Shown piece by piece: positions 8,261 to 63,076 of a DNA stretch of 64,000 bases. The number at the start of each line of letters is the position of its first letter. Positions within the stretch are counted from its first letter, which is position 1. The translations under genes were made by a program, and so were the position numbers. Location: contig JAZBRI010000003.1 in the NCBI GenBank assembly GCA_036874045.1, positions 6,894,501 to 6,958,500 of the forward strand, in the 5' to 3' direction. The notes under the pieces are model-generated. The model was not told the DNA's origin. It ran no database searches and was given only the letters and a program-made list of their open reading frames with translations. The DNA comes from Cymodocea nodosa (Eukaryota > Streptophyta > Magnoliopsida > Alismatales > Cymodoceaceae).

Positions 8261-8348
8261 AAATAGAAGTAACAAATCCAAGTTTTTCTGGTACGTTATT
8301 GGAGATCTAATCAGATATTCTGGTGTCGTGTTGGGAAAATACAAACAA
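8256..8348 (+). repeat. 3' tip of the 5' LTR, element A
   Basis: Nearly identical to 20385-20477, the end of the 3' LTR. It ends in CAAACA at 8348. The remaining 5' LTR, over 2 kb, has been lost or replaced by the unassigned sequence on the left. Confidence 0.82.
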
Positions 8349-8452: not shown

Positions 8453-9230
8453 ATGGCATATGCTTATGCTCAAAGATTTCTGAAACCTGTAATTAGCATA
8501 TGTGAATTCTGCAATTCTGAAGGACATGACATTTTTGACTGTTTGAAACTAAAACGCTTACAGATGATTAGATACCATGAACAACAAATGAATTATCCTC
8601 GCCGAGTATGAGAATCCTATAGTTTACCCAACTGATGGTCAGTATAGAATGTGTAATATGTTGAGAGACACTGAAGTTTGGGATAGGTATGACAAACTGG
8701 AACGTAGTATAGAGCAAAACCTGGACAAACTAGAATACTTTATGTGTCAGTAACAAGAAGTCAATCAATTAAACTATAAGGAAGCATATTCAGAACCTAA
8801 AATGGATATAATTTACGAAACTAAAAAAACCATAATGAAAATTGATCAAAAATTGAATGTAATGAGATTAGATTATCTGGAAAGAAAGCTAAAAGCATTA
8901 GACAAATATACAATCAAAATACAAGTTATACAACAAGACAATGAAAATTATAATGTTATAAACCTGCATAATTTGCAAAATATACAGCAAACAGAAAATA
9001 TTAATGCAAGAGAATTTAAAGAATGCACTTTAAAACTAAAAACAATTGAAGATCATAAACGTGAAAATGATATACAAAAACATCATGAGAGTAACAAAAA
9101 TCTGGAAGATGTTTGTGTAACATTAAGATCTGGAATTGATATATCATCAAGAACTCAAAATGAAAATGATATGAAGGTGGATAAGAGTAAAAATCAAAAT
9201 GATAATGAAAATGTAATAGCTAAAATCTAG
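8453..9230 (+). pseudogene. gag: Gag C-terminal part with zinc knuckle, element A
   Basis: From the ATG at 8453 the frame quickly reaches a CCHC knuckle (CEFCNSEGHDIFDC, about 8502-8543). After a frameshift near 8605 it continues as a lysine- and asparagine-rich linker, partly coiled-coil-like, to VTLRSG (about 9118), the conserved Athila motif between Gag and protease. A TAG stop lies at about 8751 and the frame ends at 9228-9230. No capsid domain fits between the primer site and the knuckle; a capsid ORF lies instead 6 kb downstream at 14702. Either the capsid was deleted here or Gag is split in this family. Confidence 0.7.
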
Positions 9231-10996
9231 AAATCACTGAAGAACAATCTGAATCTGCTAATGAAGCTAAAAATAATCAAACAAATCAAACGAAAGAAAA
9301 AGAATCTTTTAAATCACAATCTTTAGCACCATATCTTGAAAGATTACAACAAACAATACCTAAAAAACAAGAAAAAATCAGAAAAATTTCTAAAAAAGAA
9401 CTATTAGCTGTTGTGTTTGCCTTAGAAAAGTTTAGATCATATCTGATTGGAGCTAAAGTGATAGTATACATGGATCATTCAGCTTTAAAACATCTAATAA
9501 AGAAAAAAGAGACTAAACCTAGATTGATTTAATGGATATTATTATTACAAGAATTTGATCTAGAAATTAAAGATAAAAAAGGTTGTGAGAATGTAGTAGC
9601 AGATCATTTATCAAGATTACAAATAGAAAAATCAAATATTGAAATTAAGGATAATTTTCCTAATGAACAATTAATGACCATCAACACAATGCCTTGGTAT
9701 GCAGACATAGTTAATTACTTAGTAACTAGTTTAACACCTAAGGATTGGAATAGACAGGATAAGAAATTATTTTTCTCGAGAGTAAAATATTACCATTGGG
9801 AAGACCCTTACTTATTTAAGAAATGTCCAGATCTGGTTTTAAGGAGGTGTGTTCCAGAAACTGAATATCCAAGCATATTATCTTTCTGTCATGACCAAAC
9901 TTGTGGAGGGCATTTTGGTTCAAGGAAAACTACTGCAAAAATTCTACAATGTGGGTTTTATTGGCCAACACTATTCAAAGATGCTCATAAATATTGCTTA
10001 AGTTGTTTAAGATGTCAACAAATAGGAAGAATATCAAAGAGGAATATGATGCCTCTTAATCCTATTGTTGAGGTTGAAATCTTTGACGTGTGGGGAATAG
10101 ATTTTATGGGTCCATTTCCTATGTCTAATCAATTTAACTACATATTGTTGGGGGTGGATTATGTATCTAAATGAATAGAAGCTATTCCTACAAAAACTAA
10201 TGACAACAAAGTGGTAATACAATTTATAAGAACCAATATATTTGCCAGATTTGAAATACCTAAAGCTATTATCAGTGATAGAGGAACTCATTTCTGTAAT
10301 AGAAGTTTTGAAGCCTTAATGAAGAAATATGGAGTAAACCACAAAATTGCAACATCATATCATCCGCAAACAAGTGGACAATTAGAAAGTGCTAATAAAC
10401 AAATTAAGTTAATCTTAGAAAAAGTAGTAAATCCTACTAGAACAGATTGGGCTAATAGATTAATAGATGCACTTTGGGCTTATAGAACTGCTTATAAAAC
10501 AAGCTTAAGTATGTCACCTTTTAGGCTAGTATATGGAAAAAGTTATCATTTACCTGCTGAAATAGAACATAAAGCTTATTGGGCATTAAAAACTCTGAAC
10601 AATAATTTAAATCAAGCTGCTGAAAATAAAACAATGCAACTAATTGAATTAGAAGAATTTAGAAATGAAGCTTATTCGAAGACTGTAAGAGAAAAAGAGA
10701 AAATAAAATCCTAGCATGATAGAAAAATTATTCCAAAAAGCTTTGAAATAGGACAAGAAGTATATCTTTATATGGCTAGACTCCATAACCATCCAGGAAA
10801 ATTAAGATCTAGATGGGCATGACCTTACATAGTTCGAAATATTTACCCTTATGGAGCTATTGAAATTGAAAATCCTAAAAATCAGAATATATTTAAAGTA
10901 AATGGACAAAGACTTAGACCTATTCTGAAAACACCAAAAAGCTCATTTGGAATTGTAGAAGAAGTCAGAGTAAAAGATTACTTAAGCTTTACTTAG
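9230..10996 (+). pseudogene. pol: Athila pol fragment: RNase H and integrase, element A
   Basis: One frame runs from 9230 to the stop 10994-10996. It starts with a lysine-rich linker (APYLERLQ) and jumps directly to RNase H ([29 protein letters not shown], about 9389), so protease and reverse transcriptase are deleted. RNase H ends near VADHLSRL. The integrase follows, with its HHCC region (CHDQTCGGHFG to CLSCLRCQQ), catalytic D in GIDFMGPFP, D in ISDRGTHFCN and E near SGQLESANKQ, then MSPFRLVYGKS. Stops at about 9529, 10172, 10712 and 10820 replace Gln or Trp codons. Enzymatically dead. Confidence 0.92.
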
Positions 10997-14701: not shown

Positions 14702-16044
14702 ATGAGCACATAGACTCATTCTCTAAGCACTAAGCGATTAGTAAGAACACCTACCTAGGAATTTTCATCACAGAGGAGTACTAAAAAATTTTCTAAACTA
14801 AACTTTAACGAAATTCTTTGGGGTGTAGCTAGCCTTTCTTTAAAAAAGAACGTAGAGATGACTATTCCAGTAGAAAAACCATTAGCAGAAATTCTATATC
14901 CGGAATTAGTTGATGAACCTTCATGTATTCGATTGCCAAACTTTGAGGGAGATAGGTTTGAACTGAAATCTAATTATATTAGTTAATTGCCACATTTTCA
15001 TGGATTAGAAAGAGAGGATGCCTATTATTTCCTTAGAGAATTTAATGAAGTCTGTCAAATGATGAAAATGCCGAACATGTGTATAGATGCTATTAAACTA
15101 AGATATATACCTTTTTCTTTAAAAGACACAGCTAAGAGATGGTTATATACTCTGTCGCCTGATTCAATTTCTACATGGACTGAATTTTGCTCTATTTTTC
15201 TAGAAAAATATTATCCAACACATCAAACGATTAAAAAGAAGAAAGAAATCTTAATGTGTAGCCAAAAGTAGGGTGAATCATTCTGGAAATATTTTGAAAG
15301 ATTTAAAGATTTACTGACTCAATGTCCATATCATGCAATGAGTAAAGCATAATTAATAGGTATAATTTATGAAGGCATAGATGTTTCAACGAAATCTTTA
15401 TTAGAATCTACTTGTCAAAATGGATTTTTAAAGTTATGTAGTGAAGAAGCATGGGCATATTTAGAAAACCTTGCAAAAAGAACTGCACAGTGGGAAAACT
15501 CAGCTGAAGCTATTGTAGATAAAAAAGTATTGCCAAGAGGAATGCATGAAATAGATTCAAGTACTATGCTTGAGGTGAAATTAAATGAATTAACAAAGAA
15601 AATAGAAGAGTTATCATTAAATCAAAAGCTAGCAGAAAAGAATGCAAACATAAATGATTTAGATATTATTTATACTAGAAACTAGAGATATAACTTGGGA
15701 AATTCTTATAATCCTAATTGGAGAAATCACTCGAATTTATCTTGGAGAAACAATAATTTCCAGGGAGGAGAAAATGTAAATGAGAAGAATATAAGTTATG
15801 AAGCATTACTGGAATAAGGATCTAGAATAGAGAAATTAGAAAAGATAATCCAATAATTAAACAATCATCTAAATTTTGTATTTGGAAGTACTGCAATTCA
15901 AAATCAAATAGAAATATACCACTTAGACAGAAGGAACCAATGGAAGTTAGACCTACTAGAGAATTGCCAATACAAGCTATACCTAATCCTGTCAATAGAA
16001 CGGTTAATGAAATTGATACCTCTTCTAGAAGGATAGCTGAATGA
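14702..16044 (+). pseudogene. gag: Gag capsid ORF downstream of pol, element A
   Basis: ATG at 14702, chosen because copy C opens at the same place (52543). The protein is an Athila Retrotrans_gag: LPNFEGDRFELKSNYIS, LPHFHGLEREDAYYFLREF, IKLRYIPFSLKDTAKRWLY, TEFCSIFLEKYYP, FWKYFERFKDLLTQCP, then a coiled-coil tail and NPNWRNHSNLSWRN. It ends at TGA 16042-16044 with no zinc knuckle and no VTLRSG. Internal stops near 14711, 14756, 14984, 15269, 15350, 15683, 15816 and 15855, and a frameshift near 15910, make it a pseudogene. Unusually, it lies after the integrase and PTPP ORFs. Confidence 0.85.
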
Positions 16045-16236: not shown

Positions 16237-16677
16237 ATGGAATTGATGCAATTACCGTTGGATGCACTAAGGGAAGTACTGAGTAATTTGTCAGCTAAAG
16301 ATCTGTACAAGCTGTGTTATGTATCAAAGGAAATTAAAGACTATATTGAAGAAAAATATTTTCAGGGACTACAAGCTGCAAAAATGACTAAGATTAAAGA
16401 TGGATTCATATGGAGGTCATTTAATCGTAGTTCAAATACCTATGAATATCTTGCTATGGAAGAAACTACTGGAATTCCACCCAATACATTAGAAGGAATA
16501 AATCATATTATGGGGATAGATGAAGGATTAATCATATACAGGACGAGACCAATGTATGCAAGTTTATTATTACCTGATATTTTGATAAGAAATCCTATAA
16601 CAGGAGAAGAATGGAATATAGGAAGACCTAATATCAATCCAGTTTGTTGGTATCTGTTTTGGGAAAAAATTTTATAA
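16237..16677 (+). pseudogene. F-box protein, C-terminally truncated, element A
   Basis: 146 open codons from the ATG at 16237. Residues 5-45 form an F-box (LPLDALREVLSNLSAKDL, then CYVSKEI), the motif that binds SKP1 in SCF ubiquitin ligases. Residues about 108-131 read LLPDILIRNPITGEEWNIG, the start of an F-box-associated (FBA-like) domain for substrate binding. After GRPN the frame runs into a duplicated downstream segment (AATATCAATCCAGTTTG, again at about 16735), so some 210 C-terminal codons kept in copies B and C are lost. The F-box part itself has no stop. Confidence 0.82.
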
Positions 16678-18235: not shown

Positions 18236-20477
18236 TGTTTAGAATGAAAAAGTGCATATTATTAACGGTTAAATGATGGTTAATTGCATAATATTTAGCT
18301 TATCATATAAGAATTAAGCCATTATGTTATAATTGCACTATTATATGCTTTAATTAGAATTACTACTTAATTTTGGGGAATTAATGTCAATTTAGTACAT
18401 TTCTGAATTGTTGGTAAGTTGCAGGTTGTGAAATTCTTAAGTATCCGAATTTTCTGATATTTCGGACAATTATGTTTAACATACCGAACATATTTCGAAC
18501 AGTTATGTTTAACAAACCGAACATGTCGGATAGTTATGTTTAAATTGCCAAACAGTTATGTTTTGAAAGAATATTTTATTATTTCCTAAAGTACACGTGT
18601 CAAAACCATAATGCATGACTTAAGTGAACTTTCAGTGATTTAGGTGTAACTATCCGAAATGCATCTGAGCATCGGATAGTTAGACCTGTAACTCTCTGAA
18701 ATATGTATTTTATTATTAAACTACTACTGACATGTGTCGAGATCTGGAAGATTGACTTTAATTATATATCGGTGAGTTATCTATAACTATCCGAAATGCA
18801 TCTAAGCATCGGATAGTTAAGTTTGTAAGTATCTGAAATGCACCTAAGCATCGGATAGTTAAATTTATGCACGCGTTGAATTTAAATGCTTTAGTATATC
18901 ACGTAAGATGCACATGTTTAACTCATTAAGTTAGCATAACTATACGCGTTGAGTTACATGAATACACACTAAGGTAACGTGTTATGTTAACGACTTATTT
19001 CTTTATTGCACGTGTTTTATAGTTAATTCAACGAAGCAAGTCCGTTGAGTTATCTGTAACACTACGAACTATTTATTTTCTAATATGCCACTATAGCGGT
19101 TGCAGAAACAGGATAGTTGGAAGAAAAACCATGATTGCATGTATTGCGCAGGGAGAAGAAATCATAGCTGTTGATATGAATGAAGGAAATCCAACCGAAC
19201 ATTCAAGCAGAAGTAATTACCACTGAAGAAATATAAAAGAAAAAAAGAAAAAGAAGTAGTGTGTGTGATCGATGGACGGCCAATGTGTATAGAGGAGGAG
19301 CACCGAGCTTTCTATAGGTAGTATCGGCGATTCTCCAAAGTACCACACCAACCATCGTTACCACCATCATCACCACCATAATCACCAACCATCAGAGGTA
19401 TGTGAGAATACTTTCTTGATGTCGAGTCGATTCCGAGCAAAACACAGTGCTTGACAACCATTGTGAGGAGTGATCGCGTTGCGGGAAGGGAATCTATTTT
19501 CACCAAGCACCGACTCATATTTCAGGAGATCGTAAAGCTTCTAGCCTTGACTTAGGGTTGATGCCTGTATGCTGAAGAGGAGATTATCTTGCAATTCTAG
19601 ACTCACGATTCTATAGGGAGAGGAGACAAGATTGTAAGTGGTTTAATTTTCAGTGGTGTAATCGTGTCATATGTAGTGACGGAAGTATTTATTGTTGATT
19701 GAGATTACTTTACATTTCACCTTTTGCCCATTTCCATGTTCATATTAAACCAAAAATACCAAAAACAACTTATCTACTATTGTATGTTGTATTTGAGTGT
19801 TGTATTGTTTGTGTTGTATCCTGATTAATGTTATCTTTGTCAATGTTGTGATTGTTTTATGTTTGTTTTAGTTTTACAGTTTACTGAAATTGGTTCGTTC
19901 AAAAGACTTAAAGATTTTAATGGTTACTATTAGAATTATCTGAATGTTAGTATTACTTAATGATAAATCCAGTGTTTACTAACATTAAAGAGCTTAATTG
20001 ATGTTATTTACAATCTGTGGAATCGCTTAATGGTTGGCTGAATTCCTCTGTAAATAGCAATATTAAAAAGAAAAGACAAGCTCGTGGAGTTAACTTAAGT
20101 CCACGAGGTTAGTCCGTTGAGTTAGCTATAACTCAACGAACTTTTTCCGTTGAGTTAACTGTAATTCAACGGAGAGCTTATTGAATATATAAATTTGATT
20201 GTTAACAAATGAACAGTTCTCAAGTTCTTCAGCAATTCCCTATGGGATCGACCTGTACTTGCACACTAATACAATAGACACTGTGCACTTGCAGTTAAAG
20301 TACAAATTGGAATTAATATCTACATTGTATTAAAGGTTGTTTGTTTACTTCTAAAAGAAAAAGAATAGGCATAAAGATAAATTAACTAAGTAAAAATAGA
20401 AGTAACAAATCCAAGTTTTTCTGGTACGTTATTGGAGATCTAATCAGATATTATGGTATCGTGCTGGGAAAACACAA
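18236..20477 (+). repeat. 3' LTR of Athila-like element A
   Basis: Begins TGTTTAGAATGAAAAAG directly after the polypurine tract and ends near CACA at 20477; its last 93 bases match 8256-8348. Inside are four CAGTTATGTTTAA-type repeats (18468-18560), hairpins AACTATCCGA...TCGGATAGTT (about 18648-18682 and 18785-18820), a segment also present in the Sirevirus LTRs (18898-19012), a TATA box at 19232, the sequence GTACTTGCACAC near 20255, and CGTTGAGTT palindromes (19020-19065, 20086-20175). Antisense open frames at 19203-19518 are by-products of this sequence. Confidence 0.88.
19232..19239 (+). promoter_or_regulatory. LTR TATA box, element A
   Basis: TATAAAAG, conserved at the same LTR position in element B (36472) and element C (57968), is followed by an A/G-rich stretch. 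It is probably the core promoter for the genomic RNA. Confidence 0.6.
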
Positions 20478-27449: not shown

Positions 27450-27472
27450 GAAAAAGTTTTTCTTAATTTGTT

Positions 27473-31128: not shown

Positions 31129-32478
31129 ATAAGCACATACATTCATTCTCCTAGCACTAAATGATTAGTAAGAACACCTACGCAGGATTATTCAACATAG
31201 AGGCGTATTGAAATATTTTCTGAATTGGACTTTGACAAAATCCTTAGGGGTGCAGCTAACCTTTCTTTAAAAGAGAACGAAGATATGGCTACTCCAGTAA
31301 AAAAACTATTAGGGGCAATTCTATATCCTGAATTAGTTGATGAACCTTCATGTATTTGATTGCCAAACTTTGAGGGAGATAGGTTCGAACTGAAATCTAA
31401 TTATATTAGTCAATTACCACATTTTTATGGATTAGAAATAGAAGATGTCTATTATTTCCTTAGAGAATTTAATGAAGTTTATCAAATGATGAAAATGTCG
31501 AACATGAGTATTGATGCTATTAAACTTAGATATATCCCTTTTACTTTAAAAGACACAGCTAAGAGATGGTTATATACTCTATTGCCTAATTCGATTTCTA
31601 CATGAACTGAATTTTACTTTGTTTTTCTAGAAAAATATTATCCAACACATCAAACGATTAAAAAGAAAAAAGAAATATTAATGTGTAGCCAAAAACAGGG
31701 AGAATCATTTTGAAAATATTTTGAAAGATTTAAAGATTTACTAACTCAATGTCCACATCATGCAAAGAGTAAAGCACAATTAATAGGTATAATTTATGAA
31801 GGCATAGATGTTTCAATGAAATCTTTATTAGAATCTACTTGTCAGAATGGATTTTTAAAACTGTGTAGTGAGGAAGCATTGGCATATTTAGAAAACTTTG
31901 TAAAAAGAATTGCATAGTGAGAAAACTCGGTTGAAGCTATTATAGATAAAAGAATATTGCTAAGGGGAATGCATGAAATAGATTCAAGTACTATGCTTGA
32001 AGTTAAATTAACTAAATTAACAAACAAAATAGAAGAGTTATCATTAAATCAAAAACTAGCAAAAAAAAATACAAACATTAATGATTTAGATATTATTTAT
32101 GCTAGAAACTAGAAAGATAACTTTGGAAATTCTTATAACCCTAATTGGAGAGATCACCTAAATCTATCTTAGAGAAATAAGAATTTCTAGAGAGGAGAAA
32201 ATATAATTGATAAAAATATAAGTTATGAAACATTAATTGAATAAGGATCTAGAATAGAGAAGTTAGAAAAGATAATTCAACAATTAAACAATCGTTTAGA
32301 TCTTGTATTTGGAAATGCTGCCATTCAAAATCAAAATATAAATAGAAATATACCTCCTAGATAAAAGGAATCAATAGAAGTTAGACCTATGGGAGGACTG
32401 CCAATGCAAGTAGTACTTAATCCTATCAATAGAACTATTAATGAAATTGATACTTCCTATGGGAGGGAAGCTGAATGA
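31129..32478 (+). pseudogene. gag: Gag capsid ORF, element B
   Basis: Homologous to 14702-16044. The start codon is lost (ATA at 31129, where element C has ATG). The open stretch 31360-31602 covers FEGDRFELKSNYISQL to DTAKRWLY; later parts read TEFYFVFLEKYYP and FERFKDLLTQCPHH. About ten stops and small shifts precede the end at TGA 32476-32478. As in the other copies, no zinc knuckle is present. Confidence 0.83.
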
Positions 32479-32690: not shown

Positions 32691-33829
32691 ATGGAATTGA
32701 TGAAATTACCACTAGATGCACTAAGGGAAGTATAAGTAACTTCCCTTAGCTAAAGATCTATGCAGATTGTGTTGTGTATCAAAGGAAATTAAAGAATGTG
32801 TTAGAGAAAAATATTTTCATGGACTACAAGCTGCAAAATTGACTAAGATTAGAGATGGATTTTTATGGAAGTCATTTAATCATAGTTCAATCAGCTATGA
32901 ATATCTAAATATGAAAGAAAATACTGGAATTCCACCCAATACATTAAAAGGAATAGATTATATTATGGGGATACATGAAAGATTAATTATTTACAGAACC
33001 AAACCAAGGTATGCAATTATGTTACCCAATATTTTGATTAGAAATCCTATCACTAGAGAAGAATGGAATATAGGAAGGCCTAATAAATTTGAAATACCAA
33101 TTGAAAATTGTGGGTCAGCTTTAACATTTTTTGATAAAAATTTGACCATTCCTGAAAAATTGTATTACTAGAGACCAACTGGAAATTGGGATGAGGATTT
33201 ATGCTTAAGTGTGTATAATTTTCTGAATAGATCTTGGATTGAAATTACTATGATATATCTAAGACAGAAAGCATTAATTAACAACATACATGTCATATTT
33301 GATGGATATATATATCTAGTCACAGATATATCAGTTGCATTTAGATCTGATTATACATAGTAAGCATAGATAGTTATGATGATGACTTTATAGAAATATT
33401 GCCTATACCGAGTGATATAGCTAAACCACTATTTGCAGAATATGATAAAATTTAATTAGGAATGTGGTATAATGAATATGATGATCCTACTTTATGTTTG
33501 ATAAGATAGTGGGATGAATTGATGAAATTTCAAATATAGATTATGAAATACCTAAATGAATGGAAGTGGGAAGAGTAATATATTGAAATATATGTAGAAA
33601 TAAAAATAACTACATTATCTTGGAACAGAAAATGATCCATTTCTGCATTTCATTTCATTAATGGAAATATACTTATATTTAGTATTGATAACATACTACA
33701 AGTTTATAAGTTAAAAAGGAAAGCAGATTGCATTAAAACAAAATTAATAGCAAGAAGAATTATACCAAAAAAGTTTGCTTGGACTAACACGTTTATTCCA
33801 TTTGTTACTACTTTCAATCATTTTCTTAA
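32691..33829 (+). pseudogene. F-box protein with FBA-like domain, element B
   Basis: The ATG at 32691 gives MELMKLPLDALREV, then a small insertion breaks the F-box (about 32733-32755). From 32767 the frame is open for 134 codons (CVSKEIKECVREKYFHGLQAA, NILIRNPITREEWNIGRPN) to a TAG at 33169-33171. The same stop at the same codon is present in copy C. The C-terminal half is recognisable (YNFLNRSWIEI, DGYIYLVTDI, TKLIARRIIPKKFAWTN) but frameshifted near 33355, ending at TAA 33827-33829. The intact protein type would recruit a substrate to an SCF ubiquitin ligase. Confidence 0.82.
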
Positions 33830-49029: not shown

Positions 49030-49140
49030 AAAGTTTGGGAAATTCAGAAAATTTGAAGGTATTAGTGTACATTCAAAAAGTTCAAGAAAGATTGAGAAAT
49101 TTCAAAAATTTGAAGGTGTTAGTGTATGTTCAAAAAGTGA
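49030..49140. repeat. Two-copy tandem repeat of about 60 bp
   Basis: Two units with AAATTTGAAGGTATTAGTGTA and AAATTTGAAGGTGTTAGTGTA spaced about 60 bases apart, between the Athila LTR fragment and the 3' end of the Harbinger gene. It may be part of the Harbinger 3' end. 49141-49379 is AT-rich with nothing recognisable. Confidence 0.65.
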
Positions 49141-49379
49141 AGGAAAGTAAAGTAATACAAATTATAAATAAATATTTTTTATACTTTAATAGATTTTTTA
49201 ATATAATAATAAAAGTCAAATATTATTATTAACAATATCTATGTGTTAATTAATTTATAAAAAATTCACAATATTTTTGAAAATTCAATATATTTTATTG
49301 AAATATCTTAAATATTACAACATACCAAATGAAATAAAATGTTACAACAATGTTCAAATACAAATAAATTTTAAATAAT

Positions 49380-50142
49380 TCAACTTCCTTGTCCTTCCCA
49401 CATAGCATTCATAATATTTTCTCGCGTTGTATCAACTATTTCTTTCTTCTCTTCTTAAGACATTCCAATAATATTTCTTATTTCTTCTCCTCCTTCATTT
49501 ATACTTAATATCTCATTAGCAATGTCAACTTCTGCTAATTCATCTTGTAAATCTTCAAGAAAGTCAGTTGAATCTACTTGACGAATGAAATTATGAAGTA
49601 AGAAACATGCAATAACAATTTTCACCTGTTTTGGATATGAAAATGGCATGCAACTACGTAAAATTGCGAATCGATGTTTTATAACCCCAAATGTACATTC
49701 AATCACTATCTTCAATTGTGAATGCCTATAATTAAAATTCTGAATAGTATTCGTTGGTTTTCTATTGCTATCATACTCTGTCAAGTGATATCTAATACCT
49801 CGAAATGGACAAATAAATTCTAGACGATTTGGATAACCAGCATCCACTAAGTAAAATTTACCTACATACCAACTTTTATTAATATACTAAAATGTAAGAA
49901 ATGATAAGTATCACATACATACTAACTTTTATTAGTACCTAGTGGAACTTGTAGTCCATTTGGTCTAGATATTGCATCTTGTAATATACAAGCATCGACT
50001 GTAGATCCCTCCCAGCCAGCAAGAACATAAGTAATTTCCATATTGAAATTACATGCAACCATAACATTTTGAGATAATTCTCCTTTCCTATTTCTAAACC
50101 TTGCAATTTGTTGTCCATAAATAGTTGCCTTGATATGTGTCC
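49380..50142 (-). pseudogene. PIF/Harbinger transposase, exons 2b-3 (C-terminal part)
   Basis: Minus strand. Exon 2 continues from the insertion (50142) with HIKATIYGQQIARFRNRKGE, GELSQNVMVACNFNMEITYV and GWEGSTVDACIL (second catalytic Asp region), to a donor at 49939. Exon 3 (49861-49380) has KFYLVDAGYPNRL, FRGIRYHL, NFNYRHSQLKIVIECTFGVI (catalytic Glu) and HNFIRQVD, with one internal TAA before the end at 49380-49382. It is a DDE_Tnp_4/HARBI1-like enzyme that cuts terminal repeats and integrates into TWA-type targets (family knowledge). The N-terminal part lies at 59154-59777, beyond the Athila insertion. Confidence 0.9.
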
Positions 50143-50499
50143 TGTTTAGAATGAAAAAATGCATATTATTAACAGTTAAATGATGGTTAATTGTATAATA
50201 TTTAGCTTATCATATAAGAATTAAGCTATTATGTTATAATTGCACTGTTATATGTTTTAATTGAAGAATTTGCTTAATTTGGGGGAATTAATGTTAATTT
50301 AGTACATTTATGAACTGTCGGTAAGTTGCAGGTTGTGAAATTCTTAAGTATCCGAATTTTCTGATATTTCAGACAGTTATGTTTAACATACCGAACAAAT
50401 TCGGACAGTTATGTTTAACAGACCGAATATGTATCGGATAGTTATGTTTAAATTACTGAACAGTTATGTTTTGAGAGAATATTTTATTATTTCCTGAAG
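50143..50499 (+). repeat. 5' LTR remnant (first 357 bp), element C
   Basis: Aligns base for base with 56973-57329. It includes the CAGTTATGTTTAACA repeats and TCGGATAGTTATG, and stops in TTTCCTGAAG at the deletion join. Confidence 0.9.
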
Positions 50500-51593
50500 A
50501 TTAGTAGTCAGGAGGAGCAAGAAAGTGAAGAAAATGAAGAGGCTGAAAGAAGCCATTTGGACAAAAATAATTTCACAGATTCCACTGAAGAACAAGAAAC
50601 TCTTCAGTAATTTATGGAGAGAATTCAAGATAGAGTAGAGAGTTCTGCCGGCTCACCACCATAAACAGAAGCAAAAGCAAAATGCCAGGAATTTGAAGAG
50701 AATGTCCAAATGCAGCCTATGCTAGAGGAAGATCAAGAACAAACCCCTTAGGAGCAACAAAGTCACCTTCCTGACCCGACTGAAACAACAATTTTGAATG
50801 AAGTATATTTTTGTAGTCAGGAAGCTTATACCAAATATCAAGAAATACGGGGTTATGATATTATTTACAGTAGACCAGTAAATTGGGATGGAATGCAAGA
50901 AATCAAAGAATTATTTGAATTCAAACGAGGGCATGCAGTATATGAAAATTTAGTACCTTGTTTCTATGCAAATTTGAGAGAAAGAGAAGGAGGATTAATT
51001 TCAAACGTGGAGGAAGCTGATGTACAAATAACACCAGAGCTTCTCCACAACATATTTGGGTTGAAGAATGAAGGAATAAAAATTTTGGAAGATACAACTG
51101 CCGTCAAGTAGACTGAACAAGAAATCAAGGATTGTTTAGCTATCAATCCTGGTGTGTCATTATTAAACAGATTGAAATATTTAAATGGTAAAGCACACAT
51201 GGTAGCTAACATTCTGATTAAGAATGTCTATCAACGACAAGGCTATGACATAGAATTAAGTCAATTTGTCAAATGGGCCACATATGCAATTGTAAATAAG
51301 ATCCAGATAAATTGGTCTGCAATTTTTATCTCTAAGCTGAAATAGTGAAGAAGAAATTATTTTATGGAGATTTGATTCCACTGCTGATGGTGGACTGTAT
51401 CGATTTCACTAAATAAACATCAAAAAGGATCAAATCAAGAACCATTTCAGTGAAAGAATACAGAAATTTTGTAGCTGTAGAACTAGCTGTACCTTCTAGA
51501 GGAATTACAGGAGCAGTAGAGAGAATTAATCAATTAAAGCTTCAATTAGAAAAACTCCAGAAGGAAGTAGATGAACTTAGGCATAGAGATTAA
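50500..51593 (+). pseudogene. PTPP-type ORF, element C (5' truncated)
   Basis: Begins in the acidic region (SSQEEQESEENEEAERSHL) directly after LTR sequence, so it has no start codon. Best part 50794-51108: FCSQEAYTKYQEIRGYDIIY, SRPVNWDGMQEIKELFEF (a small in-frame deletion follows), ADVQITPELLHNIFGLKNEG; then KAHMVANILIKNVYQRQG, LSQFVKWATYAIVNKIQINW. It ends at TAA 51591-51593 after a coiled coil, with several stops. The left break lies close to the one in element B. Confidence 0.72.
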
Positions 51594-52024
51594 ATTGTAT
51601 TGTTCGTCTACTTATGTAAAACTGTATGAAATTGTATGATGTACTTGTATTGTAATTGATTCATATTAATGAATGTAAATTTTTCAAATGCAATTCTCAT
51701 ACGTGATTTGAATGTGAAATGAATGGAAATTATTGAATATTATGTTATTGTGAAACTTTATGAATGAATATGTAATAGATTTACAATTTGTTGAATGACA
51801 AGATAATTGCTTAAAAATTTCTATATGTTATAAGGTAAAATGTAAATTCTACATAACATAAAATGACCTGCAAGTTAAATCTTTATATAAGATTTAGATT
51901 TAAATGAATTTTAATCAGAATGATGCATTAATGACATAGATCTAACTTTATTACAGTTAGCAGAATGAAAAAGAAAGAAAAAAGAACAAAGAGGAACTTA
52001 CGAGAGTAGAACTTAGAAGTTACT
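51594..52024 (+). other. AT-rich spacer, element C
   Basis: Colinear with 13775-14184. No ORF or site recognised. Confidence 0.55.
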
Positions 52025-52205
52025 AAGTGTTAACTCAACGAAGTAAGTTCGTTGAGTTAACCATAACACCACGATGTCAGTAATATAATATAAGGTCACT
52101 CCGTCGAGTTATCAATAACTCAACGAAGTTAGTCCATGGAGTTAGCAACAGTAACCGACTGTATTCTGTTGAGTTTTCTGTAACTCAACGAGGTTAGTTC
52201 ATGGA
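52025..52205 (+). repeat. CGTTGAGTT palindrome array, element C
   Basis: AACTCAACGAAGTAAGTTCG...GAGTTAACC, then TCCGTCGAGTTATC, AACTCAACGAAGTTAG and TCTGTTGAGTT, matching the element A array in order. Confidence 0.83.
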
Positions 52206-52229
52206 TTAAGCAGAATGGTTATTCTTTTA

Positions 52230-52542
52230 ACCACAAACGAAGCTTCGTCGGTTTAGCAGTTACCAAAATTTGAAATTAGTAGTGGTACACGTACCCCTAA
52301 AAACAGAAACCACGATGCATGTTGCAAGACACGTTCTTGCAACGAGATTTATTCACTTTATGGATGCGTAGTATATATATAAAACAGAATGTTATTTACA
52401 AGTTATCAGTAATTTTAAAAGAAAGGAGAAGGCGTTGGAAGAACTGGAAGGAGAAGCAGCTGATTCAACTTCATCCGATAACAAATATTTATAGAATGGA
52501 AAGCTTCAGACTGGTATGTAATTAATCTTCTGCTATTTATTT
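52230..52542 (+). promoter_or_regulatory. Internal leader with TATA-like box and splice donor, element C
   Basis: TCGTCGGTTTAGCAGTTACC, TATATATATAAAA (52372-52384) and donor CTG|GTATGTAATT (GT at 52514-52515) are in the same order and spacing as in element A; the Gag ATG follows at 52543. Confidence 0.5.
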
Positions 52543-53887
52543 ATGAGCACATGGACTCGTTCTCTAAGCACTAAACGATTAGTAAGAACACCTACCCAGG
52601 AATTTTCATTGCAGAGGAGTATTGAAAATTTTTCTGAACTGAACTTTAATGAAATTCTTTGGGGTGTAGCTAACCTTTCATTAAAAGAGAACGTAGAGAT
52701 GGCTGCTCTAGTAGAAAAACCATTAAGAGAGATTCTGTATCTTGAATTAGTTGATGAACCTTCATGTATTCGATTGCCAAACTTTGAGGGAGATAGGTTT
52801 GAACTGAAATCTAATTATATTAGTCAATTGCCACATTTTCATGGATTAGAAAGAGAGGATGCCTATTATTTCCTTAGAGAATTTAACGAAGTTTGTCAAA
52901 TGATGAAAATGTCGAACATGAGTATGGATGCTATTAAACTTAGATATATCTTTTTTTCTTGAAAAGACACAGCTAAGAGATGGTTATATACTCTGTCGCC
53001 GAATTCAATTTCTACATGGACTGAATTTTACTCTATTTTTCTGGAAAAATATTATCCAGTACATCAAACGATTAAAAAGAAGAAAGAAATATTAATGTGT
53101 AGCCAAAAACAGGGTGAATCATTCTGGAAATATTTTGAAAGATTTAAAGATTTACTAACTCAATGTCCACATCATGCAATGAGTAAAGCATAATTAATAG
53201 GTATAATTTATGAAGGCATAGATGTTTCAACGAAATCTTCATTAGAATCTACTTGTCAAAATGGATTTTTCAAAATCGTGTAGTGAAGAAGCATGGGCAT
53301 ATTTAGAAAATTTTGCAAAAAGAACTACACAGTGGGAAAATTCGGTTGAAGCTATTGCAGATAAAAAAATATTGCCAAGAGGAATGCATGAAATAAATTC
53401 TAATACTATGCTTGAGGTGAAATTAAATGAATTAGCAAAGAAAATAGAAGAGTTATCATTAAATCAAAAGCTAGCAGAAAAGAATGCAAACATAAATGAC
53501 TTAGATATTATTTATGCTAGAAAACAGAGAGGTAACTTGGGAAATTCTTATCATCCTAATTAGAGAAATCACCCGAATTTATCTTGGAGAAACAACAATT
53601 TCCAAGGAGGAGAAAATATAAATGAGAAAAACATAAGTTAAGAAGTATTAATTGAACAAGGAGCTAGAATAGAAAAATTAGAAAAGATAATCTAACAAGT
53701 AAACAATCATCTAGAATTTATATTTGGAAATGCTGCAATTCAAAATCAGAATAGAAATATATCACTTAGATAGAAGGAACCAATGGAAGTTAGACCTACT
53801 GGAGGATTGCCAATACAAGTTATACCTAATCCTGTCAATAGAACGATTAATGAAATTGATACCTCTTCTTGGAGGACAGTTGAATGA
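52543..53887 (+). pseudogene. gag: Gag capsid ORF, element C (best copy)
   Basis: The ATG at 52543 opens 139 codons (MSTWTRSLSTKRLVRTP; LPNFEGDRFELKSNYIS; LREFNEVCQMMKMSNMS). A TGA at 52960-52962 interrupts it before DTAKRWLYTL. A +1 shift near 53273 separates the next stretch, 53261-53563 (SEEAWAYLENFAKRT, LNELAKKIEELSLNQKLAEK coiled coil). The tail reads HPN, stop, RNHPNLSWRNNN and ends with RTINEIDTSS and TGA 53885-53887. It is the Athila Retrotrans_gag capsid with the GWRNHPNxSW-type tail but without the CCHC knuckle usually found before it. Confidence 0.87.
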
Positions 53888-54077
53888 AGCAGCATATCTG
53901 AAGCAACTATCTGTATGTATATATGTTTTTTATTTTTAGTTAATAGTATCGTAGAGTTAATTTTTAACTCAACGAACTTAGTCCGTTGAGTTATACCTTA
54001 ACTCCACGAGGGTGTGTAGTAGTTATGTTAATTTTTGTGTCTGCTAAATTTTTATTTGTGTTTTACAGAATCGACAA
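53888..54077 (+). other. Intron-like spacer, element C
   Basis: Donor candidate CT|GTATGTATAT near 53911, palindrome AACTCAACGAACTTAGTCCG...GAGTT (53965-53991), acceptor TTTTACAG (AG 54067-54068) ten bases before the F-box ATG. Confidence 0.5.
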
Positions 54078-55217
54078 ATGGAATTGATGCAATTACCAAT
54101 GGATGCAGTAAAGGAAATACTAAGTAACTTGTCAGCTAAAGATCTGTGCAGGCTGTGTTGTGTATCAAAGGAAATTAAAGACTGTATTGAAGAAAAATAT
54201 TTTCAAGGACTATAAGCTGCAAAAATGACTAACATTAGAGATGGATTCATATGGAGATGATTTAATCGTAGTTCAAATACCCATGAATATCTGGCTATAG
54301 AAGAAACTACTGGAATTCCACCCAATGCATTAGAAGGAATAAATCATATTATGGGGATAGATGAAGGATTAATCATATACAAGACGAGACCAAGGTATGC
54401 AAGTTTATTATTACTTGATATTTTGATAGGAAATCCTATAACAAGAGAAGAATGGAATATAGGAAGACCTAATAGATTTGAAGCACCAACTGTAAATTGT
54501 GGGTTAGCTTTAATATTTTCTTATAAAAATTCTGCAATTCCAAAAAAATTATATTATTAGAGACCTACAGGAAATTGGGGTGAAGATTTACGTTTAAGTG
54601 TGTATAATTTTCTGAACAGATCTTGGAATGAAAATATTATGATATATCTAGGACAGAAATCATTAATTAACCAAACACATGTCATACTTGATGGATATAT
54701 CTATTTAGTCACAGAGATATCAATAGCATATAGATCTGATTTATACATAGTGAGCATAGACAGTTATAAAGATTATATAGAAATTTTACCTGTACCGAGT
54801 GAAATAGCTAAACCACCATCTACAAAATTTAATGAAATTCAAATAGGAATGTGGTATAATGAAGAAGATGATCCTACTTTATGTCTGATAAGATGGTGGG
54901 ATGAACTGATGAAATTTCAAATATGGATTATGGAAGACATGAATGAATGGAAGTGGGAAGAGGAGTATATTGAAATAGATGTAGAAATAGAAACTGCTAC
55001 ATTACCTTGGAATCAAAAAGGATCCCTTTCTACATTACATATCATTAATGGTAATACACTTGTATTTGGAATTTATAATATATTACATGTTTACAAATTA
55101 AGAAGGAACAAGAACTGCATTAAAACAGACTTAATAGCAAGAAGAACTATGCCTAAAAAGTTTGCTTGGACTGATACATTTATTCCATTTGTTTCTACTT
55201 TTCAATCATGTTCTTAA
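54078..55217 (+). pseudogene. F-box protein with FBA-like domain, full length, element C
   Basis: A single 380-codon frame from the ATG at 54078 to TAA 55215-55217, interrupted by three stops (codons 46, 61 and 161). The F-box is at residues 5-45 (LPMDAVKEILSNLSAKDL, CCVSKEIKDCIEE). The FBA-like part starts with LLDILIGNPITREEWNIG (about 113-130) and continues with LSVYNFLNRSWNE, DGYIYLVTEISIAYRSD, TLCLIRWWDELMKFQIWIM, TLVFGIYNILHVYKL and KKFAWTDTFIPF. The last 218 codons are open. The length fits plant F-box/FBA proteins, which choose targets for SCF ubiquitin ligases. It lies between retrotransposon Gag and the 3' LTR, inside the target duplication, so it is element cargo. Confidence 0.87.
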
Positions 55218-56972
55218 GCTGTGATTTTGTGTGTTTAATGTTGTGTGTACTCTGCATTTATTGTTAAAAAAAAAAAGAGAAATTTTTTTTTTATTTTCAT
55301 TTTTATTTTATAAAAGAAAAAAAAATAAAATATCAATCCAGTTTGTTGTTATCTGTTCTGGGAAACCAATTGGCTTGCTTGTGAGCCACCAAAGGCATAG
55401 GAGCTTGGGTACCACACAAGACACTAATTTATTAATATCTGTTAAATGTTATTTTGTTTTATATTTTACTTTTATCTGTGAATGAAAAGTTTTTCAGAAT
55501 CAAAAATCGGAATATGCAGAAGGAAATACAAATGAAACAAGGTATGTAACTAATTACTCATCCTGAATTTTAAATCAAGCAAAACTGTATTCATGCCTGC
55601 TACAATTACTGTATTTATTGTCAAATCTTTTACATTGAGGACAATGCTAAATGTAGGTATGGGGGGAGGTAATTAAAGTAACATCCATGTAAGTTTGTTA
55701 ATTAAAGGAATTAAAATAGTACTGCAAAGTTTTGAGGAAATTGAAAATTTTATGAACTTGCTGTAACTATCCGATAAATGAGACTGTAAAATTTTTATAA
55801 ATTGCTTGACTGTTATATTTAGAAGGCTATATAAGATGCTATTGAATTTATTATTTATGCAAATCTAGATATAGTATCTTATGTTTTTCTGAATTTCATG
55901 AGTTTAACAGTTTCACGATTTTAAAATGAAATTAGAATGCTTAAAAAAAAAAAAAAATTAGTAAATTATCTGAAGTCCTGAAAGAGCTGAGATGTAAATT
56001 CTAGATTAAATGAAACACATATGATTAAAGATACATTTAATTTGACTGATTGAACTTGTAGAATGATTTATGTGTAGATCTTATTAAACTATAGAAAAAG
56101 TATGAACTTATTGTTATGGATTCATATTTTCAATAACTGATAGAAGTAGGACTATATGAGATTGGTGTTTTACTTCATCTATATTAATGAAATACGTACA
56201 TATACAGTATGTGATTAATGCTTTGTTTTGTGTGTATTTTGATTGAAAAAAAAAAAAAATTGAGAGTTTATTGACTTGTTTGATCACGAGCCTTTTGTAC
56301 TTGAGCAGATAGGTATGTAAGGATTGTTGACCTGAAAAAGGACTCTTAAAATCTGGCAACCTAAGATCCTGATCAGATCTGGGATTGTTGACTGAAAGCT
56401 CGTTACATGGGTACATTAGAAAGCTCTTGTATGATTCAAGCTTGTCAAATTAACTTTTAAAGTACGAAAAAATATATATATATATATATATATACATATA
56501 CTATTCTAAAAAGATACAAGTGTTTTGTGAAATACAGATATCTTATGAATCGAGTATATTTTCTATTATCAAGAATTGCTAAAATATGAATTTGGAATTG
56601 ACTTTTGAAGTTGTTTAATGGAAATACAATTCTTTATTCTACTTATCTTAATCAGATTAAATTGGATTGTACTCTGATTCGTATGTTGTTGAAATTTCTT
56701 CTAGAAATCTTATTGGAAAATTCAGGATGACAGATAATGAAAAGAAGAACAAAAGATAATATAATTAACACCTATATGATGATGATATACTTGGTATGTA
56801 ATTTACATATATTCTAAGTATATTTGCAAGTTGATTACTGAAACATATAGAATATATTTTTATGCTAAACAAAAGAAAACAAAAGGGGAAGAATTAATTC
56901 TAGCACTTTTAAAGACCAATTAATTAAATCTTAGTTTGCTAAGGGACTAGCAAAATTTAGATATCGGGGAAG
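55218..56972 (+). other. 3' noncoding region of element C, ending in polypurine tract
   Basis: CCAGTTTGTTGTTATCTG (55339), TGTGAGCCACCAAAGGCATA (55380), ACATTGAGGACAATGC (55631) and TATGGGGGGAGG (55658) form a decoy purine tract; then the conserved block 56263-56445, a TA repeat (56470-56495) and ATATCGGGGAAG (56961-56972) at the LTR. No gene on the plus strand. The minus strand holds a frame of about 50 codons over the conserved block. Confidence 0.75.
56263..56445 (-). repeat. Conserved 3' block with antisense open frame, element C
   Basis: Antisense from 56416: MYPCNELSVNNPRSDQDLRL, PDFKSPFSGQQSLHTYL, KYKRLVIKQVNKLS. Similar frames are open in the copies at 6905-7065, 34935-35100 (ATG lost) and 63623-63780, but shifted in element A. 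No family recognised. It may only reflect conservation of the DNA or RNA. Confidence 0.4.
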
Positions 56973-59153
56973 TGTTTAGAATGAAAAAGTGCATATTATT
57001 AACGGTTAAATGATGGTTAATTGCATAATATTTAGCTTATCATATAAAAATTAAGACATTATGTTATAATTGCACTGTTATATGTTTTAATTGAAGAATT
57101 TGCTTAATTTGGGAGAATTAATGTTAATTTAGTACATTTATGAACTGTCGGTAAGTTGCAGGTTGTGAAATTCGTAAGTATCTGAATTTTCTGATATTTA
57201 GGACAGTTATGTTTAATATACCGAACAAATTTGGACAGTTATGTTTAACAGACCGAATATGTATCGGATAGTTATGTTTAAATTACCGAACAGTTATGTT
57301 TTGAGAGAATATTTTATTATTTCTTGAAGTACACGTGTCGAAACCATAATGAATGACTTAAGTGAACTTTCGATGAGCTATCTATAACTATCCGAAATTG
57401 CAGTTGGGCATCGGATAGTTATCCCTGTAACTCTTCGAAATCTCTTTTTATTTATAAAATAGCTGAGGACACGTGACATGTTTTGGGAAATTGACTTAAG
57501 TGGATTTTCGCTGAGTTAACTGTAACTATCTGAAATGCATTTGAGCATCGGATAGTTAGACCTGTAACTCTCCGAAATGTTATTTTATGATTAAACTGTT
57601 GCTAACACGTGTCGAAATCTGGTAGATTTACTTAAGTTATATATCGGTGAGTTATTTGTAACTATCTGAAATGCATCTGAGCATCGGATAGTTAAGTTTA
57701 TAAGTATCCGAAATGCATCTAAGCATCGGATAGTTAAATTTATGCACGTGTTTTATAGTTAAATCAACGAAGAAAGTCCGTTGTGTTATCTGTAACTCCA
57801 CGGACTATATATTTTCTAATATGCCACTGTAGCGGTTGTAGGAACAGACAGTTAGAGGAGAAAAACCACGTTTGCACGTATCGCGTAGGGAAAGAAATCA
57901 TCGTCGTTGATATGAATGAAGGAAATCCAACCGACCATTCAAGTAGAAGCAATTACTACTGAAGAAATATAAAAGAAAAGAAGAAAAAAGAAGAAGTGTG
58001 TGATCGATGGACGAACAGTGTGTGCAGAGGAGGATCGGCGTCGCAATTCTCTGAAGTACCACACCAACCATCATCATCACCACCATAATCACCAACCATC
58101 GGAGGTCTGTGAGGATACTTGCCTAATGTCAGGTCAATTCCAAGTCAAACATAGTGCCTGACAACCATTGTGAGGAGTGATCGCGTCGTAGGAAGGGAAG
58201 CCATTTTCACCAAGCGCCGACTCATATTTCAGGAGATCGTAAAGCTTTTAGCCTTGGCTTCGAGTTGATGCATGTATGCTGAAGAGGAGATTATCTTGTA
58301 ATTCTAGACTCGCGATTCTATAGGGAGAGGAGATAGGATTGTAAGTGGTTTAATTTTCAATGGTGTAATCGCGTTGCAAGTAGTGTCAGAAGTATTTACT
58401 GTCAAGTGAGATTACTTTACATTTCACCTGTCGCCCATTTCTATGTTCATATTAAAACAAAAATACCAAAAACAATTTATCTATGTTTGTATGTTGTATT
58501 TGAGTGTTGTATTGTTTGCGTTGTATCGTGATTAATGTCATCTTTGTCAGTGTTGTGATTGTTTTATGTTTATTTTAGTTTTACAGTTTACTGAAATTGG
58601 TTCATTCAAAAGACTTAAAGATTTTAATGGTTAATGTTTGAATTATCTGAATGTTAGTATTGCTCAATGATAAATCCAATGTTAACTAACATTAAAGAGC
58701 TTAATTGATGTTATTTACAATCTGTAGAATCGCCCAATGGTTGGCCGAATTCCTCTGTAAATAGCAGTATTAAATAGAAAAGACAGGCTCGTAGAGTTAA
58801 CTTAAGTCCACGAGGTTAGTCTGTTGAGTTAGCCATAACTCAACGAACTTAGTCCGTTGAGTTAACTATAAGTCAACGGAGAGCTTATTGAATATATAAA
58901 TTTGATTGTTAACAAACAAACAATTCTCAAATTCGTCAACAATTCCCTATGGGATCGACCTGTACTTGCACACTGATACAATAGACACTGTGCACTTGCA
59001 GTTAAAAGTACAAATTGGAATTAATATCTAAATTGTATTAAAGGTTGTTTGTTTACTTCTAAAAGAGAGAATAGGCATAAAGATAAATTAACTAAGTAAA
59101 AACAGAAGTAACAAATCCAAGTTTTTCTAGTGTATTGCTGGAAAACCCAACCA
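56973..59153 (+). repeat. 3' LTR of Athila-like element C
   Basis: 2181 bp, complete, ending at the target duplication. From 57240 to 57740 it holds four hairpin units AACTATC(C/T)GAAATGCAT...GCATCGGATAGTT, alternating with ACACGTGTC or ACACGTGAC and TTGACTTAAGTG (W-box-like TTGAC). TATA box at 57968. CGTTGAGTT palindromes at 57765-57800 and 58790-58880; GTACTTGCACAC near 58962. It lacks most of the stretch that the element A LTR shares with the Sirevirus LTRs. Confidence 0.92.
57968..57975 (+). promoter_or_regulatory. LTR TATA box, element C
   Basis: TATAAAAG at the position conserved in elements A and B. Confidence 0.6.
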
Positions 59154-59777
59154 CGTCCCGTCGATTGCTCCAATGCAATCCTATATAAATTAAAACCCCA
59201 AACCCAAGTAACCAAATGAAATACATAAATCGTATACATACCTATTATGATAATGATATAAATGTATGTTGAAATATGGGAAAACATTTTCATCACTTTC
59301 AATCCAAGCAGGAGTCATAGTTGAATGTTTTACTAATAATGTATCACTCAAACATAATATTGCATCGACTATTTCATTAAAATAAGTACTAATTGTCCAT
59401 GAAGAACGAGAAAATCGCTCTTGTGTTACTTCTTACCTTTGATTTTGGCCAACTGTAACAAGGAAAATTTCAAGCTTCTCTTCCACTATTATATTTTTCC
59501 CATTTGCTATTACTCCTTTCATTCTCAATAAAGTACAAAATTTTAGGAATACATGTTGACTCATCCTATATATTTTCCTGCAATTATAAGCTTGATGTGA
59601 TAAAGAAGGATCTAACAACCTAGCAATGTATTCTTGACCTTCTTTGCTAAAAATTCTATTTGTTGCAATTGAAGTACTTGCAATAGCACAAATGTTATTC
59701 CAAACAGAAGTAAGAAATTGTTGTCTTGTTTTTGTATCCTCCTCTTCTTGCTCAAGTGCTATGTTGAATGAAGACAT
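59154..59777 (-). pseudogene. PIF/Harbinger transposase, N-terminal part
   Basis: Minus strand. The ATG at 59777 opens 114 codons (LLDPSLSHQAYNCRKIYRMS, QHVFLKFCTLLRMKG, EEKLEIFLVTVGQNQR), the usual N-terminal region of HARBI1-like transposases, to a stop at 59433. The frame continues, damaged, to CCATATTTCAA near 59269. There the first-intron donor (AAGGTATAT in the copy at 38030) is mutated to AACATACAT. After the acceptor TATATAG, exon 2 (59180-59154) reads DCIGAIDGT, where the Athila element splits the gene just before the His of DGTH. The gene resumes at 50142. Confidence 0.9.
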
Positions 59778-62172: not shown

Positions 62173-63076
62173 TGTTTGGATCTCCAGCACAGCACCAGAA
62201 AACTTGTTTGGATCTCCAGCACGGCACTAGAAAAACTTGGATTTGTTAACTTCTGTTTTTACTTAATTAATTTATCTTTATGCCTATTCCTTTTTAGAAG
62301 TAAACAAACAACCTTTCACACAAATTAAATATTAATTCCAATTTGTATTTTAACTGCAAGTGCATAGTGTCTATTGTATTAATGTGCAAGTACAGGTCGA
62401 TCCCATAGGGAATTGCTTAAGAATTGAGAATTGTTCCATTTTTAACAATCAAATTTATATAGTCAATAAGCTCTCCGTTGAGTTACAATTAACTCAACGA
62501 ACTAAGTTCGTTGAGTTATGGCTAACTCAACGGACTAACCTTGTGGACTTAAGTTAATTCTGTTGTGTTCACTTAAGTCATTCTTCCAGAATATGACATG
62601 TGTCCACAGCTATTTTATAATAAAAGGAAATTTCAGAGAGTTACACATATAACTATCGATGCCCAGCTACAATTTCGGATAGTTAAAGATAACTCACCGA
62701 AAGTTCACTTAAGTCATGTATTATGGTTTCGACATGTGTACTTCAGGAAATAATAAAATATTCTTTTAAAACATAATTGTTCGACAATTTAAACATAACT
62801 CTTCGGTACATTAAGCATAATTGTCCAGTATGTTAAACATAACTGTCCGAAATAACAGAAAATTCGGATACTTAAGAATTTCATAGTCTGTAATTTACCG
62901 ACAATTCAGAAATATACTAAATTAACATTAATTCCCCGAAATTAAGCAGATTCTTTCATTAAAGCATGTAATAGTGCAATTATAACATAATGGCTTAATT
63001 CTCATATGATAAGCTAAATATTATGCAATTAACCATCATTTAACCATTAATATTATGCACTTTTTCATTCTAAACA
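62173..63076 (-). repeat. Athila 3' LTR with internal deletion, element D
   Basis: Minus strand. It starts TGTTTAGAATG at 63076 after a polypurine tract and ends near 62173-62205 with two tandem PBS-like units (TGCCGTGCTGGAGATCC and TGCTGTGCTGGAGATCC). Compared with 56973-59153, about 1.3 kb is missing between ACTTAAGT repeats near 62570. The TATA box is lost with it. CTCAACG motifs lie at 62470-62560. Confidence 0.85.

Follow-up and report, generated by a model that had tools for sequence, protein, structure and literature searches.

The DNA analysed here is a 64,000-nucleotide window of the Cymodocea nodosa genome (contig JAZBRI010000003.1, positions 6,894,501 to 6,958,500), in which reading frames for F-box proteins lie inside LTR retrotransposons. 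This raises the question of what such a gene is doing in an element of this kind. Our main reading, to which we assign a probability of roughly 0.64, is that the F-box ORF has apparently long served a very abundant Athila-like family as an accessory gene, that the RNA carrying it has a capsid-containing intron spliced out, and that its protein is likely an SCF adaptor that plugs into SKP1 and would mark a host protein for destruction.

F-box copies in the window

We identified three colinear plus-strand copies of one LTR element family in the window (copies A, B and C), and a fourth, partial stretch of LTR and UTR on the minus strand at 62184-64000. In all three, the env-like ORF is succeeded by about 0.9 kb of non-coding sequence bearing a TATA-like box. 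The capsid ORF comes next; a spacer separates it from the F-box ORF, behind which lie a long 3' UTR and an LTR of about 2 kb. The features are given below.

8321..8339, plus strand: copy A, sequence resembling a primer-binding site (PBS), behind the 5' LTR end
8501..8542, plus strand: copy A, zinc knuckle CEFCNSEGHDIFDC, beginning of the 5' ORF (NC-pol)
9533..10978, plus strand: copy A, RNase H end and integrase (PF17921 5.6e-15, PF00665 2e-9)
14702..16044, plus strand: copy A, capsid ORF with stops and a frameshift (PF03732, E 1.2e-8 on 14993-15271)
16237..16677, plus strand: copy A, F-box ORF (PF00646, E 6.5e-8); similarity stops after codon ~132
18236..20446, plus strand: LTR 3' of copy A, right end placed by eye; a PBS-like site is next, at 20454
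31129..32478, plus strand: copy B, capsid ORF with stops
32691..33829, plus strand: copy B, F-box ORF with stops and frameshifts; 71.8% and 70.3% amino acid identity to copy C in two pieces
50143..59153, plus strand: copy C from 5' LTR to 3' LTR; LTR start TGTTTAG, end ACCA
50138..50142 (TGTCC) and 59154-59158 (CGTCC), no strand: left and right target duplication of copy C, 4/5 bases matching
50143..50499, plus strand: copy C, 5' LTR remnant, 95.8% to 56973-57329
50500..51593, plus strand: copy C, decayed env-like ORF (Athila 3' aORF, PF20167-type), 79% amino acid identity to copy A
52372..52384, plus strand: copy C, TATA-like box ahead of the leader exon, recognised by eye
52496..52513, plus strand: copy C, leader-exon ATG, MESFRL, beginning of the spliced F-box message, with its splice donor, GTATGT, at 52514
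52514..54068, plus strand: copy C, intron of the F-box message with the whole capsid ORF inside; exactly absent in L012, L036 and 89 genomic junctions
52543..53887, plus strand: copy C, capsid (CA) ORF, zinc knuckle absent, interrupted by six stops and a frameshift
53913..54068, plus strand: copy C, shorter alternative intron from capsid stop to F-box; exactly absent in L045
54078..55217, plus strand: copy C, F-box ORF of 379 codons and stop, with 3 in-frame stops (PF00646, E 2.9e-11)
56973..59153, plus strand: copy C, 3' LTR, 2181 bp

The F-box ORF was broken in all three window copies, and that of copy B belongs to a more distant subfamily. An AT string similar to the TATA-like box was seen by eye in the 20 fetched copies that cover the box whole, and an Rfam search gave no matches. 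Copy C had lost most of its 5' LTR and pol by an internal deletion. The sequence-only reading of this DNA had placed one copy within a proven 5-bp target duplication. The insertion itself stands, because copy C splits a DDE transposon whose whole, uninterrupted relative is found at 37630-39221; the perfect duplication does not, as only four of the five bases agree. Remnants of the DDE (PF13359) transposon lie on both sides of copy C, at 49075-50142 and 59159-59680 (minus strand).

Several further arrangements were noted in the window. LTR copies are followed by PBS-like sequence at 8260-8340, 20446-20472 and 62184-62240 (minus strand), some with two tandem PBS-like blocks by eye, which suggests tandem or recombined elements. 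Copy B begins within a Copia ORF (25728-28975), directly past its integrase/SH3 part, and Copia RT sequence (60983-62180) lies next to the minus-strand stretch towards the end of the window; at both sites, the insertion may have gone into the same Copia region. The stretch 21650-24369 holds two 660-bp direct repeats with LTR-like beginnings, and fitted exactly between them is a gypsy integrase fragment of 1.4 kb (22308-23708, 91% to the copy A integrase); this may be a non-autonomous element built round an integrase piece. Diverged relatives of the PF20167-type env-like ORF (~30% amino acid identity) lie outside the three copies at 45640-46300 (minus strand) and 20552-20926.

We then asked whether the reading frame encodes an F-box, as the sequence-only reading had claimed. 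The Pfam F-box domain PF00646 was found at 54078-54212 in copy C with 43.2 bits against a cut-off of 20.5, and the match in copy A was also over the cut-off, while the open piece of the frame-shifted copy B gave 0.0092 and 16.3 bits, below it. Together with matches over the cut-off in all 10 open genomic copies submitted, this bears the claim out. The FBA domain named alongside it was not supported, since PF07734 (FBA_1) was below its cut-off everywhere tested: 0.013 in copy C, and listed for five of the 10 open copies with a best score of 17.5 bits against 21.1. 'FBA-like' is a plausible description of the downstream half of the predicted protein, for whose substrate-binding part no family was assigned with confidence. 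An FBA_1 family search of the genome matched none of 31 candidates, its control being silent as well. No match at 0.001 or 10 was obtained in a protein database with the F-box protein as a single query or as a 19-row alignment; this null is weak because the gag query got only nine matches in the same database, where plant cover is probably thin. A PDB profile search with the F-box gave no match at E 1.

A genome-wide family with a probably displaced capsid

We searched the genome (374.6 Mb, 28 contigs) with the F-box ORFs of copies A and B. The best 150 of 6267 first-look candidates for copy A were scored and all 150 matched at E<=1e-73, and the best 150 of 4964 for copy B all matched as well; the first-look figures are candidates and not counted copies. 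By eye, the 150 scored matches to copy A represented 23 of the 28 contigs, and at least 24 of them had an open frame of at least 379 amino acids without a stop in the match. This result excludes a gene present only in three local duplicates, an outcome that would have undone the sequence-only reading. The family is very abundant in the genome, with the F-box gene apparently a long-standing accessory gene and not a recent local capture.

Twenty loci were fetched for a long open F-box frame, and same-strand features were scored over 10 kb per locus; loci chosen in this way give no measure of the fraction of copies that are open. The 379-codon frame was free of stops in 18 of them, one codon shorter in another, and ended by a stop seven codons early in the last, and the start was ATA in place of ATG in two of the 20. 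Upstream of the F-box we found the capsid in 18, the env-like ORF in 14 and a pol piece in 10, and downstream the 3' UTR in 19 and the LTR start in 16. The full series of pol piece, env-like ORF (PF20167-type), capsid, F-box and 3' UTR was present in eight. Open frames of 379-380 codons occurred in both main subfamilies.

These data agree with what had been proposed for the window. The F-box lies between a Gag capsid ORF and the 3' LTR of Athila-like elements, an order repeated across the fetched loci, and the env-like ORF, capsid, spacer, F-box, UTR and LTR are colinear across copies. The gene has amplified with the element, and the same flanks were present at 18-19 of the 20 loci on many contigs. 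Since nested elements fill the region, one could picture a family of host F-box genes that nested elements have inserted into, but the recurrence of these flanks on both sides refutes that picture, which we consider hardly credible. Inverted pairs of F-box copies a few kb apart were also seen, at L022 and L012 (for L022, a second copy on the other strand; C17:5847844 and 5851836); such pairs could be a source of hairpin RNA and siRNAs.

The sequence-only reading had called the gene captured, and here we found no donor in the FBA_1 and F-box family searches. The F-box family search gave at least 150 matches, in which element copies and host genes are distinguishable by fetching alone, and the three rows fetched among the matches listed included one host gene. 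This gene (L056), the sole host F-box gene read, encodes an F-box/Kelch protein with a PF24750-like propeller, and its best match to the element protein was 26% over 62 residues at E 0.11.

The same family has a second oddity, a probable split gag with a displaced capsid. Athila elements are usually defined by a canonical order of capsid, zinc knuckle and WRNHPN motif in one ORF before pol, and the family departs from this order. Its 3' capsid ORF (PF03732 in copy A) has no zinc knuckle, keeps the motif WRNHPNLSW and has the same end in copies A, B and C. In copy A, the LTR end and PBS are followed by an ORF starting MAYAYAQRFLKPVISICEFCNSEGHDIFDC that continues to RNase H and integrase, with frameshifts and with protease/RT deleted; the RNase H and this deletion were recognised by reading. 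The zinc-knuckle piece was found in five of the 20 open-chosen loci (L012, L020, L024, L025 and L026). It lies ~90-110 bp past the LTR end and PBS in L012, L024 and L026, which leaves no room for a capsid, the piece in L026 belonging to a different element, which runs opposite to the F-box strand. L020 begins inside the knuckle piece, and L025 is rearranged with a capsid fragment ahead of the knuckle. Four of the nine database relatives of gag were opened: three had the full knuckle behind the capsid in one ORF, the knuckle of P0003 was missing its first Cys, and those long enough continued into a WRNHPN-like motif. We read these decayed copies as a gag probably split in two, with the capsid relocated 3' of the env-like ORF and the knuckle and pol staying 5'.

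LTRs, a PBS, gag, and H2C2 and rve integrase domains after RNase H place the family among the LTR retrotransposons (Metaviridae, Ty3/Gypsy order), the order of RNase H and integrase being taken by reading from copy A, where RT is deleted. PF20167 gave E 0.0044 and 17.4 bits in the env-like ORF of copy C against a cut-off of 45. The PBS resembles a tRNA-Asp site. A tRNA-Asp primer site is reported for the Athila lineage (PMC1142308).

Splicing of the capsid-containing intron

An intron-like spacer ahead of the F-box gene was among the earlier claims, and proved to be a real intron. Forty loci were examined for the leader, of which 33 were unspliced, two spliced and five without a leader match at two mismatches or fewer. 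GTATGT comes after the leader ATGGAAAGCTTCAGACTG in 31 of these 33 copies that retain the intron. The ATG of the F-box ORF lies nine bases past a TACAG-type acceptor, with the G or C lost in some copies. The leader and F-box exons were fused exactly in two of the 40 fetched loci, L012 and L036, and the shorter intron, from capsid stop to F-box, was exactly absent from L045. Across the whole genome, the exact junction of leader and F-box, with the capsid intron gone, was found in 89 copies (45 + 44 by strand) against none for a reversed-pattern control, and this number is a lower bound because matching was exact. Splicing is thus shown through its reverse-transcribed products in the genome, and we infer a promoter that makes the spliced RNA.

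The reading frame is kept across the junction (MESFRL-NRQ-MELMQLP), and the resulting ORF has 388 amino acids in L012 and 281 in L036, where a stop falls in the F-box. The gene shows the exact excision of an upstream GT-AG intron that characterises a retrovirus-like spliced accessory gene. An in-phase GT-AG pair that could join the leader to the capsid also exists; alternative splicing of this kind was dropped as a candidate, since the exact leader-capsid junction was found nowhere in the whole genome. LTR dating of L012 was likewise set aside, the 15% over 551 bp being unreliable as internal repeats misalign.

A small number of splicing events may lie behind all 89 of these copies. Such common descent would also allow that they form one non-autonomous subfamily started by a single freak retro-copy, with normal elements making no F-box message, and L012 is missing env and most of pol. 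However, L036 has kept its env region and has the same exons joined, so that the junction is present in two backgrounds; moreover, L045 has lost the other intron, and the donor is intact in nearly all unspliced copies with a good leader match. We therefore regard a freak origin as distinctly unlikely.

Under our main reading, unspliced RNA would give the capsid and spliced RNA the F-box protein, in the way that retroviruses divide structural from accessory proteins. The gene stands beside the capsid and is predicted to be made by removal of the capsid intron, which ties both outputs to a single RNA, and this would suit an SCF adaptor for the element's own proteins, trimming the capsid level or uncoating particles instead of countering host defence. 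The data fit this role and the host-target model alike; we judge it unlikely, though the capsid as client is equally testable.

Signs of selection on the F-box protein and its proposed role

We next examined the F-box ORF for constraint. Young copies are ~5% apart, with differences spread nearly evenly over codon positions, and their pairwise dN/dS was not lower than that of wrong frames, indicating no clear constraint by this measure. As the pairwise values were uninformative, we also used shared against single variants, and divergent copies. The variant test covered 41 copies, excluded C-to-T and G-to-A changes, and compared variants shared by at least two copies with singletons. Codons 134-379 lie outside the similarity ranking, but every second locus had been selected for a frame that is open in this stretch, so that stops could not occur in it. 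Within these codons, 35 of 51 shared variants were at third positions compared with 58 of 152 singletons (OR 3.55, p 0.00018), and silent against replacement changes gave OR 2.58 (p 0.005). The values over all 379 codons were OR 2.42 (p 0.002) and OR 1.93 (p 0.026), respectively. A further 20 loci had been taken from the ranking by codons 1-133. For the 20 loci not chosen for an open frame, with copy C, p was 0.013 for third positions and 0.14 for silent/replacement, and for the capsid in the same test (36/42 rows) it was 0.45 and 0.017.

The two main subfamilies were represented by 40 loci on one side and by seven loci plus copy B on the other, and had 26 silent and 44 replacement fixed differences compared with 68 and 210 among singletons (p 0.036), a weak silent excess, and third positions gave p 0.21. 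Pairwise dN/dS between them was 0.31-0.49, with a gap to wrong frames (0.38-0.87) that is not clear. Lower values came from two short divergent copies, L057 and L058 (147 and 156 codons, 66% identical to each other), which were picked by hand from the F-box family list and on which the low dN/dS rests. L058 compared with L010, L023, L050 and L051 gave 0.20, 0.27, 0.22 and 0.19 against 0.50-0.90 in wrong frames, at dS 0.98-1.32 and 59-67% amino acid identity; for L057, the range was 0.30-0.39 against 0.48-1.58. L058 adjoins a capsid tail and spacer upstream, and upstream of L057 there is an LTR end and then a short capsid tail and spacer. The dN/dS comparison proposed in the sequence-only reading was thus negative among young copies and positive for L058. 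Most simply, the F-box gene would already have been in the ancestor of the compared copies, and its protein kept for much of that time; these values are a statistical sign of purifying selection between divergent copies.

We do not claim that the F-box is better preserved than the capsid. In the further 20 loci, stops numbered 22 of 4877 in F-box codons 134-379 and 61 of 7301 in the capsid (19 of the 20 loci, L036 having no capsid). Per mutable codon, the values were 5.8% against 10.1%, or 7.6% without capsid codon 263. This codon is TAG in 14 of 19 copies (L029-L048), and is either inherited or a strong deamination hot spot.

The window copies are all broken and young copies show no clear dN/dS constraint, as would be expected if the F-box ORF were a passenger, a host gene acquired once and without function for the element. 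The low dN/dS of L058 over a dS of about 1.0-1.3, the third-position excess among shared variants and the open frames in both main subfamilies speak against this, and we give it little credence.

F-box domains of such quality normally serve to bind SKP1 and deliver a client to an SCF ubiquitin ligase. According to our main reading, the element's F-box protein would be made and bound to host SKP1, and the target of the adaptor would be a host factor for restriction or silencing and not the capsid of the element itself. Host silencing factors are a reasonable first guess as the client because some viral proteins of plants (P0, for example) bind SKP1 and counter silencing. We also put forward, as a tentative extension that is possible and short of probable, that the lineage moved its capsid 3' and made it the intron of the F-box gene, that splice choice would then decide between particles and an SCF adaptor against host silencing, and that the adaptor helped the family to its abundance. 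If this is true, a retroelement-encoded ubiquitin-ligase adaptor would arm the element against its host. With a domain that is clear, a message whose splicing can be seen in the genome and an indication of constraint, such counter-defence by a retrotransposon becomes directly testable.

To our knowledge, the extra ORFs of plant LTR retrotransposons are mostly without a known domain or role. Ulp1, which enters one of the comparisons below, is a SUMO-protease-type domain. PF20167 is located in the 3' additional ORF of sunflower Athila (PMC11728184). Athila elements with such an ORF (PF20167/PF03078) resemble the present family in the env-like ORF (here PF20167-like below the cut-off), the long LTRs and the PF03732-type gag, whereas the family here has a second 3' gene, the F-box, and a capsid found not ahead of pol but behind the env-like ORF. 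Orchid Ty3/Gypsy elements carry an AlkB (2-ODD) ORF (PMC9289625) and likewise represent a Gypsy family of plants in which an additional ORF, with a host-type domain, was acquired and retained; orchid AlkB is an RNA demethylase backed by biochemistry, whereas the F-box here is known from sequence. The word 'F-box' is absent from the main text of that paper. In Thlaspi arvense, the F-box 'LTR-gene' TaChr6G576 is a host F-box family gene that was then tandemly duplicated (PMC8764390). It similarly ties an F-box gene to LTR retrotransposition in a plant genome, but it is a host gene, while the C. nodosa F-box is a standing gene of an element family. Host-type genes transduced by Bs1 and other elements also lie inside the element, in one or few copies (review PMC7264820), compared with the very large family and divergent copies seen here.

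Vandal elements that escape silencing have VANC genes with a captured Ulp1 domain (KIU; review PMC13317346), and are again transposons bearing a gene with a host-type protease domain, but they are DNA transposons and the product is not a ubiquitin ligase adaptor. The polerovirus protein P0 has an F-box-like motif and binds SKP1, and some P0 proteins target AGO1 (PMC6593998); the same source names autophagy as contributing to the loss of AGO1 and describes what SKP1 binding does as unclear or debated. P0 is thus a SKP1-binding silencing suppressor of a selfish plant agent, to which the element F-box may be likened by description. Spliced subgenomic RNAs are described for EVADE, Ogre, BARE and C. 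elegans Cer1, the last making a nuclear protein from its spliced mRNA (review PMC12786077). These LTR retrotransposons also obtain a second product through splicing, but in EVADE and BARE it is a short Gag, whereas here it would be a predicted F-box protein, with the capsid gene forming the intron. In the titles and abstract starts of the open-licence literature, we found no paper that describes an F-box gene as a fixed constituent of a family of LTR retrotransposons. Taken together, we class extra ORFs, captured domains and spliced RNAs in LTR elements as already known, and the F-box variant with its unusual genome order as new.
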